DNA from: Coriobacteriia bacterium
GTDB lineage: Bacteria; Actinomycetota; Coriobacteriia; Anaerosomatales; Anaerosomataceae
NCBI GenBank assembly: GCA_030651765.1
Contig: JAUSBY010000003.1
Location: forward strand, 186,001 to 250,000
Reading direction: 5' to 3'
Length of the DNA: 64,000 nt
Below the pieces are notes generated by a model, which had not been told where the DNA came from, ran no database searches, and saw only the letters and a list, made by a program, of their open reading frames with translations. The position numbers were made by a program, and so were the translations under genes. Below are positions 31,832-43,487 of this stretch, piece by piece. Positions within the stretch are counted from its first letter, which is position 1. Each line of letters starts with the position of its first letter.

Positions 31832-32764
31832 ATGGCGAACTTGAAGGAGCTCACCCATCGCGAAGATCGGCTCGCCGGCGGACACCGCCTGTGCGCGGGA
31901 TGCGGCGCCTCGATCGCTGTCCGTCAGGTGCTGCTCGGCGCTGGTGAGGACCCCGTCGTCGTCGGCTGCGCCACAGGCTGCCTCGAGGTGTCCACGACCA
32001 TCTACCCGTACTCCTCGTGGAAGACCCCGTTCATCCACAACGCGTTCGAGAACTCCTCGGCCACCATCTCCGGCGTGGAGGCTGCCTTCAAGGGTCTGAA
32101 GCGCGCGGGCAAGATCCCCGCTGACAAGACCATGAAGTTCGTCGCGTTCGGCGGAGACGGCGGCACCTACGATATCGGCCTGCAGGCGCTCTCGGGCGCC
32201 ATGGAGCGCGGGCACGACATGGTCTACGTGTGCTACGACAACGGCGCGTACATGAACACCGGCATCCAGCGCTCGTCGGCCACGCCCAAGGGCGCCTGGG
32301 CCACGACCGCCGAGGTGGGCGCCGCCCAGCAGGGCAAGATCCAGCGCCGCAAGGATCTCACGCAGATCATGGCCGCGCACGGGATCCCCTACGTCGCGCA
32401 AGCGTCGATCTCCCACTGGAAAGACCTCACGACCAAGGCCGAGAAGGCGTTTGCTGTCGAGGGTCCCGCGTTCCTCAATGTCTTTGCGCCGTGCCCCCGT
32501 GGTTGGCGCATCCCGTCGAGCCAGTCGGTCGAGATCGCGAAGCTTGCGGTCCAGACGGGATTCTGGCCGCTGTACGAGGTAGAGGACGGCGAGTTCCGCC
32601 ACACGGTCAAGGTGCATAACCGCAAGCCGATCGAGGAGTTCTTGCGTCCGCAGGGCAGGTTCCGTCATCTGTTCTCGCCCGGCAACGAGGAGCTGCTCGC
32701 CGAGATCCAGGGCGACGTTGACCGTGCGTGGGATCGGCTGATGGCACGCTGCTCACAGGTCTGA
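31832..32764 (+). CDS. porB: Pyruvate:ferredoxin oxidoreductase beta subunit
   Basis: A 310-residue thiamine-diphosphate subunit. The thiamine-binding core is FGGDGGTYDIGLQALSGAMERGHD, and the Mg/product loop is YDNGAYMNTGIQRS. The cluster Cys are in CAGCGAS, GCATGCLEVS and the later APCPRGW. These match archaeal-type pyruvate ferredoxin oxidoreductase beta, so the por cluster is most likely pyruvate-specific. GAGAGGAGGC lies just before the ATG. A strong hairpin terminator follows. Confidence 0.95.
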   Translation: MANLKELTHREDRLAGGHRLCAGCGASIAVRQVLLGAGEDPVVVGCATGCLEVSTTIYPYSSWKTPFIHNAFENSSATISGVEAAFKGLKRAGKIPADKTMKFVAFGGDGGTYDIGLQALSGAMERGHDMVYVCYDNGAYMNTGIQRSSATPKGAWATTAEVGAAQQGKIQRRKDLTQIMAAHGIPYVAQASISHWKDLTTKAEKAFAVEGPAFLNVFAPCPRGWRIPSSQSVEIAKLAVQTGFWPLYEVEDGEFRHTVKVHNRKPIEEFLRPQGRFRHLFSPGNEELLAEIQGDVDRAWDRLMARCSQV

Positions 32765-32826: not shown

Positions 32827-32912
32827 ATGTTAGAATGTTCTCAGCGTGCGGCTGCGTCGGCACGCGACAGGCAGGTGTGCGCATCGGGTTCGAGCAGCAA
32901 GGACAGCCATCC

Positions 32913-35486
32913 ATGATCCGACGCCCTCTAGGCAAACACCTCCACAGTCAAATCATCTGGCCGCTCGCCATCGCATCGGTCGTGGTGGCCATCATCGCGA
33001 CGATAGTCGCGGTCAGCGCGATCGGTACGATCGTCGACAGGTGGATAGGCAGGAGCGCCGAGAGCGCCGGCACGCTCGTGCAGGCACGCATCGCACATCG
33101 CTCTCAGTCCACCCAGCGGAGTCTTGAGCTGATCGCGACCGATCCGCGGGTCATGGAGGCGGTAGCGACAGACGACTACTCGGAACTGCGGACTCACTTG
33201 TCGCTGGCCGGTCGTGCGCTCGGCGTCGACGGACTCATGGTTCTCGACGGCTCCGGGGCGGTGATAGCCTCCGTAGGCGGGCTCGCCGTAGCCGACGGCG
33301 AACGACCGTTGGAGGCGGACGCGCTCGACCAGAACCCCGGCGCGGGAGCGCTTCCCTACCTGCTGCACGATGGCGGCGGGCACTTCACCGTCGTGGCGAC
33401 TCCGCTGGCCGGCCCTGGTGGGCAGACATGGCGGCTGGTAGCCGCGACCGATCTGAACCATCTTCTCGGGGCAGAGTGCGGGGCCGTCACCGGCGTGGGT
33501 TTCACGGTGCTCGATCGTGACGGGACCCGGATGGCCTCGGCCGTGCACGGCGACCCCTCCCTGGGGAGCGTGGTCCTGGCGCTCGATCGTGAGACGCTCC
33601 AACGCGCGGTGGCAGCCGCCGGTTCGGACCCGGAGGGTTCCGATCGCGTGAGCACCGATCTCGATGGAACCTCGTACCGCGTCCTCGGGCGCAAACTCCA
33701 CTTCGCCAACGACGCAGGTGGCCCAGGCGCGTTCCTGATCACGGTGGTCGATACGCAGATCGCCCGCGACGCTCAGACGACCACGACCTTCCTCATCGGC
33801 ATGTGGCTTGTGTTCGGAGTCGTGGGGCTCGCGATCATGAACTGGTACGTGGCGCGCCGCGTGACCCGACCGTTGGAGACGCTCTCAGCGAGCGTCGCCC
33901 GCGTCGCCGGCGGTGACTTCACAGCCAAGGTGGAGATCGGCGGTTCCAACGAGATCGCCGATCTGGCGGACGACTTCAACCGGATGACCGTCTCACTCAA
34001 GGAGCGCAGCGACTCCCTTACCAAGAAGGTTCTCGAGCTGGCGACCCTGTATGAGATGAGCCGGTCGCTCGGCTCCACACTGGAACTCGAGACGCTACTC
34101 GACTCGGTGCTTGACTCGGCCATGCGCATCTTCGACGTTGAGATCGGCTATGTCACGATGGTCGACCGCGAGACGGGCGCTCTCGAGGCCACGATCTGGC
34201 GCGGAGTCGATCTCTCCCGGGTCGGTGAGACGTCGGTGCGTAGCTCGATGTCGGACTGGGTGGTGCGCGAAGGGCGACCGCTGATCTTCAATCCGCCTGC
34301 AGACGGTGTCGGCATCGACGATGCCCGGGGGCACGCGGACGCAGTGTCCGGTGCCCTGGCTGCGTTGTGCGTGCCGCTGCTCTCCAACGAGGGCACGACC
34401 GGCGCGATCACGGTGGGCACGCGCAATTCGGAGCAGCGCTTCACGAGCGACGACGTTCGGCTGCTCGCGACGATCGCGAACCACGTCACCATCGCGGTCG
34501 GCAACATCAGCCTGTTCTCGAGCGTGCAGGAGGCGTATCTGGCGACGGTCCGCGCGCTCGCGGCGGCCGTCGACGCGAAGGACCCGTATACCCGGGGCCA
34601 CTCGGACGGCGTCGCCGAGTACGCCCTCATGATCGGCGAGGCGATGGACCTGTCCGCCGAACAGATGATCGCGCTGGAGATGGCGGCGTACCTGCATGAC
34701 ATCGGCAAGATCGGCATCAGCGAGGACATCTTGCTCAAGCCCGGCAAGCTCACCGATGCCGAGATGAGTCAGATGCGACACCATCCACTCATCGGCGCGA
34801 ACATCCTGAAGCCGGTGGCGTTCCCCTGGCCGATCGCACCGATCGTGCGCCACCATCACGAGCACTACGACGGAGAGGGCTATCCTGCCGGACTGCGCAG
34901 CGAGGAGATCCCGATCCTTGCGCGCGTGCTGACGGTCGCGGACGCCTTCGAAGCGATGGTTGCCGACAGGCCCTACCGTCGTGGGCGCTCGCAGCAGGAG
35001 GCGATCCTCGAGCTCCGCCGGTGTGCGGGATCGCACTTCGATCCCCGCGTCGTCGATGCGTTCATCGGCGTGCTCGAGCGTGTCGACACCGGCGTGACCG
35101 ACGTGTTCCCCGCCGACGAGGACCCGGGGCTCGAAGAGACGCAGGCTGTGCTTGTCGCGATGTGCGACGGGATGTTCGCAAGCTTCCGGCGTCTCGGTGG
35201 TCCGCGCCTGGCGAACAACCTGGAGCGCTCGGCGAACCAGGAGTTCGGTTCGCTCGGGATGCCGCTTTCGTTGCATGCGGGTCATCTCTCGGTCGAGGGC
35301 GAAGAGGAGATGACGGACGAGGAGCTCGTCGAGCACCTCCGGACCGCGATCGGCGTCATCTCCGAGTGCATCGAGCGGGCATCGGGCGCGGGGCTGGCGG
35401 ACCACTTCCAGTCCGAGGCGCTCGCCGGCCTTCCGGAGCGGCTGCGTGTCTGCGCCGGACGGCTTGGTTTCGCGACGGCTACCTAA
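32913..35486 (+). CDS. Membrane HD-GYP c-di-GMP phosphodiesterase with HAMP and GAF domains
   Basis: An 857-residue sensor. Transmembrane helices lie at about 12-38 and 292-312, enclosing a 250-residue extracytoplasmic cache-like domain. HAMP follows to about 366, then GAF (about 385-540), then HD-GYP with YLHDIGKIGI (His595-Asp596) and HHHEHYDGEGYP (about 647-658), the full metal and GYP motifs of an active enzyme. A further C-terminal region of about 140 residues (helical, ending SECIERASG...) is not recognised. Upstream ATG 32835 is in frame, but AAGGAC precedes the ATG at 32913. It probably degrades c-di-GMP in response to an outside signal. Confidence 0.9.
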   Translation: MIRRPLGKHLHSQIIWPLAIASVVVAIIATIVAVSAIGTIVDRWIGRSAESAGTLVQARIAHRSQSTQRSLELIATDPRVMEAVATDDYSELRTHLSLAGRALGVDGLMVLDGSGAVIASVGGLAVADGERPLEADALDQNPGAGALPYLLHDGGGHFTVVATPLAGPGGQTWRLVAATDLNHLLGAECGAVTGVGFTVLDRDGTRMASAVHGDPSLGSVVLALDRETLQRAVAAAGSDPEGSDRVSTDLDGTSYRVLGRKLHFANDAGGPGAFLITVVDTQIARDAQTTTTFLIGMWLVFGVVGLAIMNWYVARRVTRPLETLSASVARVAGGDFTAKVEIGGSNEIADLADDFNRMTVSLKERSDSLTKKVLELATLYEMSRSLGSTLELETLLDSVLDSAMRIFDVEIGYVTMVDRETGALEATIWRGVDLSRVGETSVRSSMSDWVVREGRPLIFNPPADGVGIDDARGHADAVSGALAALCVPLLSNEGTTGAITVGTRNSEQRFTSDDVRLLATIANHVTIAVGNISLFSSVQEAYLATVRALAAAVDAKDPYTRGHSDGVAEYALMIGEAMDLSAEQMIALEMAAYLHDIGKIGISEDILLKPGKLTDAEMSQMRHHPLIGANILKPVAFPWPIAPIVRHHHEHYDGEGYPAGLRSEEIPILARVLTVADAFEAMVADRPYRRGRSQQEAILELRRCAGSHFDPRVVDAFIGVLERVDTGVTDVFPADEDPGLEETQAVLVAMCDGMFASFRRLGGPRLANNLERSANQEFGSLGMPLSLHAGHLSVEGEEEMTDEELVEHLRTAIGVISECIERASGAGLADHFQSEALAGLPERLRVCAGRLGFATAT

Positions 35487-38597: not shown

Positions 38598-40100
38598 GTG
38601 CGCCTCAGGTCCATACGCGTGCGGGTCTCGTTGTTGTCCGCTGCCTTCGCGCTCGTCTTAGTCGGCAGCGTCACCGTCGCCACGTTCTACTTCGTGGCTG
38701 CGGGTATGAGCACGACGGCCGAGGAGACCTCGGACCGGCTTGTCTCGGCGGCCGGTCGCGTCTACATGAGCATCCTCGGGCTGGCCGAGGACGACGCCAC
38801 ACGACGCGGGCTTACCGGTGCTGAGGCCGACGCGTACGCGGCCGAGCAGATCCTGGCCAGACTCCCGGAGGTTCTTTCGCAAGGTCTCGTGTTCGAGGGG
38901 GCATTCGCGCTCCGTGTCGTCGACGAGCCCGGTGCCGAGATGCGCCTCGTCTGGTCCAACGGCGCCAGTGAAGGAGTCGGTACCGACGAGGGGCGCCGCA
39001 CCGCGCTGGCCACGGGAGAGGCTACACACGAGCACCCGAAGACGCAGCCGCTGTTCCTCGGCATGGTGATCGACGCCGATCTCGCCGCACACGTCGCACA
39101 TCTCCCCCTCGACCTGCCCGGTCCCTCGATAGCCCTCCTCGATGTGGTGTACACACCGGCACGCGAGGAGGCGGTGCTCGACTCGATGCGTCTGCCGATG
39201 GCTATCGTCACCGTGCTCGCGCTGATCGTGGCGGCGATGTTGACCACGCTTACGACCGGGTGGGTGCTCTCGCTCATCGACAACATCCGGCAGGCGGCCG
39301 ACTCGATCGATGCCGGTCAGCTCGACGTGCATCTCCCCGAGGACGGCGACAACGAGATCGCCGAGCTCGCGCACTCGCTCAATCGCCTGATCGACAACCT
39401 GAACCGGCGCAATGAGGCGCAGACCCGCTTCATCGCCGACGCTTCACATGAGCTTGCCACACCGGTTGCGGGGATTCGCGGCTACGTGAACATCCTGCGT
39501 GCGTGGGGAGGCGAGGATCCGGGCCTTCGCGAGGAGGCCGTCGGCGCCATCGACCGCGAGTCCCGCCGTATGGCGCGCCTGTGCAGCGACCTGCTCTCGG
39601 TGATCAGGTCCGAGGAGATGGTCGAGTACCGGTCTATCCGGTACGACATCAACGGCGTCTGCCGGGAGGTGCTCGCCAATGCGGCCACACGGTACATGGA
39701 TAAAGGCCTCGCGTTCAGTGGTCCCGACGAGGGTCCGCTGTGGCTGTACGGAGACCCTGACCGCGTAGAAGAGGCGCTCGGCATCATCGTTGACAACGCG
39801 TGCAAGTACACGCCCGAGGGCGGGAGCGTGAGCGTTTCGACACGGCGGCGGCGGGAGCGCATCGTGGTGCGAGTCGCGGATACCGGCGTCGGCATCCCGC
39901 CAGAGGACCTGCCGAGCGTCTTCGAGCGCTTCTATCGCAGTGATGCATCCCGCTCGAAGGAGACAGGCGGGTTCGGACTCGGACTTGCGATCGCCAAGCA
40001 CATCATCGACTTGAGCGCGGGTACGGTGACCGTTTCGAGCACGGTCGGCCGCGGTACGACCTTCGAGCTGTCCCTCCCGCGCAGGCGGATCGGTGCGTGA
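38598..40100 (+). CDS. Sensor histidine kinase (HAMP-HisKA-HATPase)
   Basis: A 500-residue kinase with transmembrane helices near 10-34 and 200-222 around an outer sensor domain of about 165 residues. A HAMP domain follows, then HisKA with His284 (ADASHELATPVAGIRG) and HATPase motifs DNACKYTPEG, DTGVGIP and GGFGLGLAIAKH. The GTG start abuts the response regulator stop. The outer domain has no motif I recognise, so the signal is unknown. Confidence 0.9.
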   Translation: MRLRSIRVRVSLLSAAFALVLVGSVTVATFYFVAAGMSTTAEETSDRLVSAAGRVYMSILGLAEDDATRRGLTGAEADAYAAEQILARLPEVLSQGLVFEGAFALRVVDEPGAEMRLVWSNGASEGVGTDEGRRTALATGEATHEHPKTQPLFLGMVIDADLAAHVAHLPLDLPGPSIALLDVVYTPAREEAVLDSMRLPMAIVTVLALIVAAMLTTLTTGWVLSLIDNIRQAADSIDAGQLDVHLPEDGDNEIAELAHSLNRLIDNLNRRNEAQTRFIADASHELATPVAGIRGYVNILRAWGGEDPGLREEAVGAIDRESRRMARLCSDLLSVIRSEEMVEYRSIRYDINGVCREVLANAATRYMDKGLAFSGPDEGPLWLYGDPDRVEEALGIIVDNACKYTPEGGSVSVSTRRRRERIVVRVADTGVGIPPEDLPSVFERFYRSDASRSKETGGFGLGLAIAKHIIDLSAGTVTVSSTVGRGTTFELSLPRRRIGA

Positions 40101-40107
40101 GCTCGAG

Positions 40108-40683
40108 ATGAGGACCCGGAGCATCGCGCAGGCCGGCGTGATCGGAGCAGTCTACGCCGCGCTGACACTCGTGGTCATCCAGAGCCCGCTCGGCTACGGC
40201 CCGGTCCAGATTCGGCTCTCCGAGGCGGTCACGGTGGTGGCCTGCCTCACGCCCGCCGCCATTCCGGGGCTGTGGATCGGTACAGCCGTGGCCAACGCGT
40301 ATCTCGCAACGCAGTTCGGGATCCTGGCGCTCCTGGATGTCGTCTTCGGTTCCGTGGCCTCGCTTCTCGGCGCGGTCTGGGCATGGCGCCATCGCGACAG
40401 GCCGGGTATCGCGCTTGCGGGGCCGGTCGTCGCCAACGCCCTCATCGTTCCGGCGTACCTGCCGCTGATGCTCTCGGGGCTCGCGGGCCTGGACTACTAC
40501 CGGATCCCGGCACTCGGCATCGATGCGAGCGGCGCGTGGTGGGCGATGTATCTGTTCGGCGTGGTCGCTGTGGGCTTCGGGCAGGCCGTCGTCGTCTACG
40601 GACTCGGGTTGCCGCTCTTGCGGTTGCTCAAGCGCCTCGGTGCCGAGAGGATCCTCTCCGGCGGTTCGGATGTGACGCCATGA
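40108..40683 (+). CDS. queT: QueT-family queuosine-precursor transporter (ECF S component)
   Basis: A 191-residue protein with six hydrophobic helices. QueT S components carry queuosine precursors using an ECF module encoded elsewhere. Recognisable family parts are AQAGVIGAVYAALTLVV at the first helix, YGPVQIRLSEA, and the loop GLDYYRIPALG. It overlaps the kinase end slightly if the earlier GTG at 40093 is used; the ATG at 40108 is preferred but uncertain. The stop overlaps the next gene by 4 nt (ATGA). No ECF A/T genes are nearby. Confidence 0.82.
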   Translation: MRTRSIAQAGVIGAVYAALTLVVIQSPLGYGPVQIRLSEAVTVVACLTPAAIPGLWIGTAVANAYLATQFGILALLDVVFGSVASLLGAVWAWRHRDRPGIALAGPVVANALIVPAYLPLMLSGLAGLDYYRIPALGIDASGAWWAMYLFGVVAVGFGQAVVVYGLGLPLLRLLKRLGAERILSGGSDVTP

Positions 40684-42467
40684 CGAGTGGTCTTCTCCCG
40701 GGCGCGCCTCTGCTTTCGCGACACGTCGAGACGTGTGACGGCTGTGGCGGATGCGCGCGGAGTTGTCCGGCGAAGGCCATCAGGGTGATTGGCGGGCGCT
40801 CGGAGATCATCGGGGAGAAGTGCGTGTCCTGCGGCGTGTGTGTGGGAGAGTGCGGACGGGGCGGCTACTCGGTTCGCGACGACACCCCGCGTGTCGAGGA
40901 GCTGCTGCGTTCCCGTCGGCCGGTTGTCGCGCTTCTCGCCACCGAGTACGCGGCCGCGCTGAGCCCCATGACGTCGGGGCAGGTGGAACGGGCACTCGAG
41001 ATGCTCGGGTTCTGCTCGGTCGAGACCACGGTGCTCGGCGAGGAGGTGGTCGCCGAGAGCTACGAGATGCTGCACAGTCGCGAGGACACGCTCATGAGCA
41101 TCAGGTCGACCTGCCCGGTCGCTGTGGACTTCGTGCGGCGGTTCCACCCGGGGCTCGTTGCCGCGCTGGCTCCGATCGTCCCGCCATACGTCGCTCAGGC
41201 GCGGCTGATTCGGGCACTGTATGACACCGACATCGCGATCGTCTATGTGAGCCCGTGCTATGCGCGCAAGGACGAGGTGTACGATCCGCAGTTCGATGGC
41301 GTGGTGGACGTGGCGATCGACTTTCTCGAGCTCAGACGGCTCATAGAGGCGCAGGCGGCCGATCCTTCCCATGGCCGGACGGTCAGACCGTCGGTGCGTC
41401 GGCCGGGCGTGCTCAAGGAGGTCTCGCTCACCGACGGTTTTCCGAAGAACACGGTGGTGTCGCGATACCTGACCGGCGCTGAGGTCCACACCGTCCGGGG
41501 CCTTGCCGACCTTGACCGGCTGCTCAAGGCGATCGAGGCGGGTGAGACCGGTCCGGTCGTGATCGACATGCTCAACTGTGAGGGCTGCATCGATGGACCG
41601 GCGGTGGCGCCGGGTCTGTCCCTGTATGCGAAGCGGAGCATAGACGCGGCCGCACGCCAGGACCAGAGCACGACCCACGTGAGCACGCGCGCTCTCCTCA
41701 GCGTGCTCCCCGCAGTCGAGCTGGTGCGCTCGTTCTCGCCGCTGCCCGTGCACGTTGCGACGCCCGCCGACGCTCAGATCGACGACATGCTCGCGGCCGG
41801 CGGCTTGACGCGCGACACCGCGCCCGACTGTGGGGCCTGTGGCTGGCCGACATGCGTCGAGCATGCGGCTGCCGTGTTCGTCGGAGACTCGACCTGGGAT
41901 CTGTGCCTCCCGCTGCAGCGCTCGCTGCTGCAGGCACAGACGACGCTACTCAAGGAAAGCGAGACGCTCGATCCGGTGACCGGCCTGTGGAACAGGCGCT
42001 CGTTCAAGGACCGTCTCGACCTCGAGTACGCGCGCCATGTGCGGTACGATTCGGCGCTCGCCGTCGTGCTGCTCGACGTCGATGGGTTCGGGGCCGTCAA
42101 CGACCGGCACAGCGAGGCGACCGGCGATCTGGTGCTCGCCGGACTCGGTGAGCGGCTCGCACGTCTGATCCGGTCGACGGACCTCGTGGCGCGCTGGGTC
42201 GGTGATCAGTTCGCGGTGATCCTGCCCGGCATCGGCAAGACCGCCGCCTTCGCCGTGGCAGAAAAGCTGCGCGAGGCAGTCGCGCAGGCGCCGGTCCCGG
42301 TGAGCACCGACGGGTATACACACGAGGTGAGTGTCACCGTATCGATCGGGGTGGCCTCTGCACGCGGTGCCGCCTTCGGGCCGGGCGACCTGCTCGAAGC
42401 CGTCGATACCGCACTGCGCGAAGCTATGGCGGCCGGAGGTGACCAGGCGCGGCTGGCCCCCGGCTAG
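40680..42467 (+). CDS. Ferredoxin/[FeFe]-hydrogenase-like/Fe-S/GGDEF fusion protein
   Basis: A 595-residue soluble protein. Residues 19-29 and 48-58 are two [4Fe-4S] ferredoxin motifs. Residues about 80-330 match the [FeFe]-hydrogenase large-subunit core: STCP (Cys145), SPCYARKDE (Cys193) and NCEGC (Cys300, Cys303) keep the four Cys that hold the H-cluster cubane, but the proton-relay Cys before Cys145 is Thr. CGACGWPTC (384-392) with Cys409 is a further Fe-S domain. A GGDEF domain fills 427-590: metal Asp466 and the inhibitory-site RSTD (498-501) are present, but the GGDEF loop reads VGDQF (507-511). It is likely a sensor. It overlaps queT by 4 nt. Confidence 0.85.
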   Translation: MTSGLLPGAPLLSRHVETCDGCGGCARSCPAKAIRVIGGRSEIIGEKCVSCGVCVGECGRGGYSVRDDTPRVEELLRSRRPVVALLATEYAAALSPMTSGQVERALEMLGFCSVETTVLGEEVVAESYEMLHSREDTLMSIRSTCPVAVDFVRRFHPGLVAALAPIVPPYVAQARLIRALYDTDIAIVYVSPCYARKDEVYDPQFDGVVDVAIDFLELRRLIEAQAADPSHGRTVRPSVRRPGVLKEVSLTDGFPKNTVVSRYLTGAEVHTVRGLADLDRLLKAIEAGETGPVVIDMLNCEGCIDGPAVAPGLSLYAKRSIDAAARQDQSTTHVSTRALLSVLPAVELVRSFSPLPVHVATPADAQIDDMLAAGGLTRDTAPDCGACGWPTCVEHAAAVFVGDSTWDLCLPLQRSLLQAQTTLLKESETLDPVTGLWNRRSFKDRLDLEYARHVRYDSALAVVLLDVDGFGAVNDRHSEATGDLVLAGLGERLARLIRSTDLVARWVGDQFAVILPGIGKTAAFAVAEKLREAVAQAPVPVSTDGYTHEVSVTVSIGVASARGAAFGPGDLLEAVDTALREAMAAGGDQARLAPG

Positions 42468-42476
42468 GAGGGGCCG

Positions 42477-43487
42477 ATGCGCGAGGCGCTGCTGTGGGAG
42501 CGCGAGGCCGGGCGGATCCACTGTCTGCTCTGTCCCCATGACTGCCGGATAGCCGAGGGCGCCCGGGGCATCTGCGGCGTCAGGGAGCACCGCGACGGCG
42601 CGCTGTGGGCGCTCACGTACGGGATGGTCTCCTCGGTGGCGGTCGACCCGATCGAGAAGAAGCCGGTGTTCCACTACCGCCCGGGCACGACCGCGCTCTC
42701 GCTCGGCAGCGTGGGTTGCTCGATGAGGTGTGGCCACTGCCAGAACTGGCAGATCAGCCGGGCGCGTCCGGGCGGCGATCAGCCGCTTCAGTATCTCGGT
42801 CCGGAGGAGGTCGTCCCGCTCGCCCGGGAACACGGCTGCGAGGGCGTCGCCTTCACCTACAACGAGCCGGTCATCTGGGCCGAGTACGTCCTGGACGTGG
42901 CGCGCGCGTGCCGGGAGGCCGGCATCTACACGGTGATGGTCACCAACGGCTACATCACCGAAGCCGGACTCGATCTTCTCGGGCCGTACATCGATGTGTG
43001 GAGGGTCGACATCAAGGCCTTCGATGACGAAACGTATCGCGAGTTCTGTCACGCGCGCTCGGTGCGCCCCGTGCTCGCCGCAGCCGAACGCGCGCACACG
43101 GTCTGGAACATGCACGTTGAGGTCGTGACCAACGTGGTGCCCACCGTCAACGATACCGGGGAGACGCTCGGTGCGATCGCGACATGGATCGCCGGGAGCC
43201 TCGGCCCGGACACGCCGTGGCACGTGACGCGTTTCTTCCCCTACCTCGACCTCGCGCACCTTCCGCCGACGCCGATCGAGACGCTCGAGAACGCTCGCCG
43301 GATCGGTACGGAGGCCGGGCTGCACTTCGTGTTCGCAGGCAACGTCAGGATGCCGGGCGCCGAGGACACCGTGTGTCCCTCGTGCGGTGCCGTTGCGATC
43401 GGGCGCGACGGCTACAGCGTGACGAGACGCCAGACGCGCGCCGGGGCCTGCGCGGCGTGCGGCACACCGCTCGGCATCGTCGACTAG
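42477..43487 (+). CDS. amrS: AmmeMemoRadiSam-system radical SAM enzyme AmrS
   Basis: A 336-residue radical SAM protein. The cluster motif is CSMRCGHCQN, the PFL-activase-like CxxxCxxC form. A N-terminal Cys block (HCLLCPHDC, GICGVRE) and a C-terminal zinc-ribbon pair (CPSCGA, CAACGT) are both typical of AmrS. The AmrS protein works with AmrA and AmrB/Memo in an unsettled radical pathway; neither partner lies in this window. TAGGAGGGG precedes the ATG. The gene follows the fusion protein by 9 nt. Confidence 0.9.
   Translation: MREALLWEREAGRIHCLLCPHDCRIAEGARGICGVREHRDGALWALTYGMVSSVAVDPIEKKPVFHYRPGTTALSLGSVGCSMRCGHCQNWQISRARPGGDQPLQYLGPEEVVPLAREHGCEGVAFTYNEPVIWAEYVLDVARACREAGIYTVMVTNGYITEAGLDLLGPYIDVWRVDIKAFDDETYREFCHARSVRPVLAAAERAHTVWNMHVEVVTNVVPTVNDTGETLGAIATWIAGSLGPDTPWHVTRFFPYLDLAHLPPTPIETLENARRIGTEAGLHFVFAGNVRMPGAEDTVCPSCGAVAIGRDGYSVTRRQTRAGACAACGTPLGIVD

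Follow-up and report, generated by a model that had tools for sequence, protein, structure and literature searches.

The locus and the architecture of the protein

The window analysed here, a stretch of 64,000 nucleotides from a member of the Coriobacteriia, carries at positions 40680-42467 a single open frame for a protein of 595 aa, and this, like all other features of the window described below, lies on the forward strand. Four Pfam domains were recognised in it, all above their own cut-offs: Fer4_10 at residues 14-58 (1.2e-7), Fe_hyd_lg_C at 81-307 (4.3e-30; 105.6 bits, cut-off 22.1), the iron-sulfur module PF04060 at 383-411 (3.6e-5; 23.8 bits, cut-off 23) and GGDEF at 430-588 (1.9e-35).

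The N-terminus (residues 14-61; positions 40719-40862) holds two [4Fe-4S] ferredoxin motifs with Cys 19/22/25/29 and 48/51/54/58, and is followed by a domain with the H-domain fold of hydrogenases (residues 81-307; 40920-41600), in which the four cubane cysteines 145, 193, 300 and 303 are present and Thr144 (41109-41111) occupies the position of the proton-relay cysteine. The C-terminal [4Fe-4S] module (residues 383-411; 41826-41912) contains CGACGWPTC at 384-392 together with Cys409, and a predicted connecting helix (residues 410-427; 41907-41960; AlphaFold2) leads from it to the GGDEF domain (residues 430-588; 41967-42443; Pfam and Foldseek). In the latter, RSTD, the RxxD of the I-site (498-501; 42171-42182), precedes the degenerate loop VGDQF (507-511; 42198-42212), V507 being separated from D501 by exactly five residues. 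These motifs had all been correctly placed in a first-pass annotation of the sequence, which nevertheless missed that the last two cubane cysteines form a CxxC (CEGC), as opposed to the CxxxC of HydA and of R. albus HydS.

AlphaFold2 models, built from 48-row alignments, were confident over most of the full length (mean pLDDT 88, pTM 0.73) and for residues 1-415 considered separately (mean pLDDT 86). In Foldseek searches [FeFe]-hydrogenases matched the sensory half (E about 1e-18, TM 0.65 by query), whilst the full model also matched PleD, WspR and other GGDEF structures with c-di-GMP bound; domain order and fold thus agree with the earlier proposal of a hydrogenase-derived sensory module fused to GGDEF. 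No Rfam families were found between positions 32000 and 50000 of the window.

Distribution of the protein

About 60 of the 69 genomes of the host's order encode a full-length homologue, at 47-96% identity, and a profile of the sensory half recovered about 30 more of the GGDEF type, with the same architecture, from other Actinomycetota families, along with three relatives from other Actinomycetota in which the output is a histidine kinase. Within the order, PF02906 (Fe_hyd_lg_C) is found solely in this protein, once per genome save for one copy split between contigs. A further homologue (L062, genome G007) is split over two reading frames, either as a broken copy or through sequencing error. 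The protein is therefore real and conserved, its conservation across the order ruling out chance or artefact. The domain order picked out at first pass proved to be common across genomes and is not peculiar to the window; a unique fusion is ruled out, as the architecture is widespread in Actinomycetota.

Relationship to the sensory hydrogenases

In architecture the sensory half matches the sensory [FeFe] hydrogenases, HydS groups C and D. The two N-terminal [4Fe-4S] motifs, the Fe_hyd_lg_C domain with its cubane cysteines and the C-terminal [4Fe-4S] module are shared with the group C proteins of T. maritima (TmHydS) and R. albus, with the group D protein of T. mathranii (TamHydS) and with HfsB of Thermoanaerobacterium, for all of which a regulatory role has been proposed, as it is here. 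The C-terminal module behind the H-domain has been described for both groups (PMC13104023), and the PF04060 module of the window protein aligns with that of R. albus HydS; TmHydS and TamHydS, like the window protein, are without the relay cysteine. However, known HydS end in PAS or in nothing, whereas here the GGDEF domain follows directly on the C-terminal cluster and the PAS domain that group C HydS have behind that cluster is missing (Pfam, AlphaFold2).

A hydrogenase-derived module placed on a signalling output is in itself familiar. HydDB lists [FeFe] group C1 as histidine kinase-linked, C2 as chemotactic and C3 as phosphatase-linked, with no GGDEF-linked class, and its one link to a diguanylate cyclase, a putative one, is for [NiFe] group 2c (PMC5037454), which shares the kind of output with the window protein but is an [NiFe] enzyme. 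Papers on sensory hydrogenases likewise connect [FeFe] sensors with PAS, kinase, chemotaxis and phosphatase functions. In the open-licence literature searched, HsfB proteins were met only in brief annotations as PAS-bearing hydrogenases. Clostridial proteins with the same sensory half have a PAS-like tail at the end. The gene for one of them, R. albus 7 RUMAL_RS17375, adjoins that of a SpoIIE phosphatase as well as a second gene, which is HydA-like, a locus which matches the HydS/HydA2 arrangement reported previously (PMC11837493), and as Pfam calls no PAS domain in this protein its tail is termed PAS from the literature. A 460-aa Fe_hyd_lg_C-PF04060-like protein without an output domain was seen in Parabacteroides distasonis (L165, 3953-6932), where it adjoins ATP-binding (anti-sigma-type), DRTGG and PHP genes. 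Among the records compared, that of Acetoanaerobium noterae (L162; NZ_CP154629.1; 2.6 Mb, four annotated features) is labelled a plasmid and is probably a mislabelled chromosome.

The histidine kinase-fused relatives (genomes G319 and G400) have the same Fer4 motifs, an H-domain with CxxC in L3, the PF04060 module and a cytosolic output domain, in their case HisKA/HATPase, and keep both APS and the lysine discussed below. In G319 the kinase lies directly behind HydA: the locus (L186, 173-15000) reads HydA, HydS-like histidine kinase with CxxC, response regulators, HydE, HydF and HydG, all three maturases exceeding their cut-offs (HydG 542 bits). G400 has two HydG pieces below the cut-off, perhaps a broken copy.

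The [2Fe] pocket and the maturation genes

The cysteine positions checked in the hydrogenase-like and PF04060 parts are invariant in 61/61 homologues, as are those of the ferredoxin part in the 48-row alignment, and since the cubane cysteines never vary a [4Fe-4S] cluster would be expected in the H-domain. Position 144 is Thr in 59 and Ser in two of the same 61. In HydA the [2Fe] subsite is held by the serine of APS and the lysine of PCxxK. These second-sphere residues, which also mark HydS, are not found in the window protein: Glu89 (40944-40946) is present in all GGDEF-type rows, as against Ser or Ala (APS/APA) in HydA and in the PAS-type and kinase-type sensors, and Arg196 (41265-41267), at the position of the anchoring lysine, is present in 61/61 homologues of the order, where PAS and kinase types keep Lys. 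Across the GGDEF type as a whole this position is Arg, Ala, Gln or another residue; a few proteins outside the order retain Lys, all of them with Glu at the other site. The L3 loop (41559-41603), VIDMLNCEGCIDGPA, has CxxC in place of the CxxxC of HydS and is one residue shorter, with the four cysteines still invariant. Taken by itself this spacing decides nothing, since it is also seen in the kinase-type relatives that occur beside maturases.

The maturation genes point in the same direction as the pocket. Neither HydG nor HydF exceeded its cut-off in any of the 69 genomes of the order, mostly MAGs, nor did HydG in the 30 GGDEF-type genomes outside it. The few HydG matches in the order reached at most 192 of 312 bits and were interpreted as different radical SAM enzymes; HydF profile matches were present in all 69, but at 93 bits or fewer against a cut-off of 325 and confined to the GTPase part, and were attributed to other GTPases.

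Unlike TmHydS and TamHydS, both of which bind an H-cluster (PMC13104023, PMC10407848, PMC10055695), the window protein combines a rebuilt [2Fe] pocket with the absence of HydF and HydG. The H-domain of the GGDEF type thus apparently lacks an H-cluster, and the earlier suggestion of an H-cluster in the window protein, and hence of H2 or CO sensing at one, now looks unlikely. A true sensory hydrogenase, its complete H-cluster assembled by other maturation genes, would accord with the invariant cubane, with the HydS architecture including the C-terminal cluster, with the lack of a relay cysteine in group C/D HydS, with the kinase-type relatives beside HydA and HydEFG, and with the growth on H2 of cultured members of the order noted in PMC9686372; however, the passages of that paper covered here report [NiFe] hydrogenases in the cultured strains and do not mention FeFe. 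Set against the sub-threshold HydG and HydF of 69 genomes, the replacement of Ser by Glu and of Lys by Arg/Ala/Gln, and the shortened L3, we regard a true sensory hydrogenase as very unlikely. Because HydG and HydF are absent, the [2Fe] pocket rebuilt and the cubane cysteines invariant, we read the sensory half as a putative multi-[4Fe-4S] redox or Fe-S sensor derived from HydS.

The GGDEF output

The description of the GGDEF domain as degenerate holds for the host's own family but not for the wider protein type. A canonical loop is found in 33/35 homologues of the order outside the host's family and in 29/30 from other families (62/65), and in 0/26 members of the family itself, where the fourth loop position is never Glu (Q in 16, R in 9, T in 1). 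The R and D of the RxxD I-site are kept in 91/91 homologues, including all 26 of the family. Since loop and I-site are distributed in this way, a redox-gated diguanylate cyclase is the probable ancestral state, proteins of the wider type are probably genuine cyclases, and the window protein is probably a non-catalytic effector of c-di-GMP (or GTP). The family forms one clade with support 100 in a tree of the sensory half from which the GGDEF domain was left out, and a single loss of the loop therefore suffices. An AGGEF loop in two further loci of the order (L045 and L048; genomes G045 and G058) is apparently a separate loss of the canonical sequence.

The loss is not spread evenly over the protein. 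Of the columns conserved elsewhere in the order, 102/105 in the sensor and 28/46 in the GGDEF domain are still conserved in the family (Fisher p 2e-8; with no correction for shared ancestry this value overstates significance, because related sequences are treated as independent). The columns lost include K471, H479, G507, E510 and K583, of which K471 and H479 are gone from all 26 members, whilst the I-site region keeps R498, D501 and R505. The window protein has the fold of a diguanylate cyclase, lacks both the (G/S/A)G(D/E)EF loop and the substrate-site lysine (VGDQF; K to G471), and has the combination of retained RxxD and dead loop which marks degenerate-GGDEF receptors and which is found in 26/26 of its family. 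PopA and CdgG are receptors of this kind, in which the catalytic loop is lost and the I-site kept. FimX likewise has a dead GGDEF domain that binds nucleotide (PMC8846402). The window protein resembles all three in its lost loop and differs in its sensory domain; its own ligand binding is predicted. The simplest reading is thus a dead cyclase which would still bind c-di-GMP at the I-site, as was proposed when the protein was suggested to bind rather than make c-di-GMP.

Alternatively, diguanylate cyclase activity may persist in the window protein, its odd loop being a tolerated variation. D466, D509 and K529, metal- or phosphate-binding positions of active cyclases, are near-invariant in the family, so that residual cyclase activity or GTP binding is possible, and VCA0965 is an active cyclase which tolerates changes at the first loop residue (PMC3974145). 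However, a valine at position 1 is reported not to be tolerated in VCA0965, where AGDAF is inactive, and the family combines the constant absence of Glu at position 4 with the universal loss of K471 and H479; an active enzyme is accordingly improbable in our estimation. It is less probable still, and very unlikely, that the domain is decaying and functionless and the Fe-S half alone matters: within the family the GGDEF domain does change faster than the sensor, but it is full-length in essentially all members, its I-site and fold residues are invariant, and many of the losses fall on the catalytic site. A non-catalytic receiver remains the preferred reading for the family.

Genomic context and the c-di-GMP network

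The gene lies within a tight run of co-directed genes. A QueT-family transporter gene (40093-40683) overlaps its start codon by 4 nt and is found upstream in 48/49 loci of the order. Downstream lies the gene for an AmmeMemoRadiSam-system radical SAM enzyme (42477-43487; TIGR04337, 328 bits), as in 45/49 loci of the order, and the two are also adjacent in seven genomes of other Actinomycetota families, several of them distant. This adjacency would be explained if the Fe-S half carried electrons to the radical SAM enzyme or regulated it, with the GGDEF domain tuning the electron supply and signalling secondary. However, that the genes are neighbours in one order may reflect general synteny, and in lineages f39, f27, f67 and f86 they do not lie side by side although the domains of the protein are the same; we therefore consider such a role rather improbable.

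Several of the 11 GGDEF matches in the host genome have GGEEF/GGDEF loops. The genome also encodes one EAL protein, an HD-GYP protein and four MshEN domains; no PilZ domain was found in it. Given these other GGEEF/GGDEF, EAL and HD-GYP proteins, the host probably has a c-di-GMP network in which the messenger is both made and degraded. Within the window, positions 32835-35486 encode a dCache-HAMP-GAF-HD-GYP protein, likely a c-di-GMP phosphodiesterase, with a relative close to the sensor gene in about 10/49 loci of the order.

Proposed mechanism and significance

We propose, as the reading that we on balance favour, that the protein is an Fe-S sensor derived from HydS and wired to GGDEF, without a [2Fe] site, whose GGDEF domain in the host's family would serve as a receiver of c-di-GMP or GTP. 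It would be a cytosolic protein descended from the sensory [FeFe] hydrogenases, with four [4Fe-4S] clusters inferred: two of the ferredoxin type, the H-domain cubane and the PF04060 cluster. Low-potential electrons, reflecting the redox state of ferredoxin, or cluster damage may alter the state of the unit formed by H-domain and PF04060, which helix 410-427 would relay to the GGDEF domain. In most lineages the relayed state would gate c-di-GMP synthesis. In the host's family, where the domain is probably no longer a cyclase, it may act as a receiver, with c-di-GMP bound at the I-site or else GTP at what remains of the active site; the protein would thereby integrate redox state with c-di-GMP level and pass the signal to a partner, perhaps the products of neighbouring genes. 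For this family the c-di-GMP reading is plausible.

More tentatively, and at slightly less than even chances, these proteins may represent a class of c-di-GMP sensor spread across the phylum, in which HydS has lost the [2Fe] site and kept the cubane, an invariant Glu stands in the place of the [2Fe] ligand, the H-domain acts as a redox or small-molecule switch and the cyclase of one family has become a c-di-GMP receiver. In line with the first-pass annotation, which knew of no system with such a domain set, a search of open-licence literature, its matches judged by title and abstract, yielded no description of an [FeFe]-type sensor with GGDEF output, a scope which allows for a prior description elsewhere, and a 2022 census of c-di-GMP sensors names none of the Fe-S or hydrogenase type in its main text (PMC8846402).

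The lineage provides natural versions of the sensor from which the H-cluster has apparently been discarded and the rest kept. As their output, c-di-GMP, lends itself to direct assay, what the [4Fe-4S] frame alone contributes becomes testable. If the proposed reading is true, a low-potential Fe-S sensor would be added to c-di-GMP networks.
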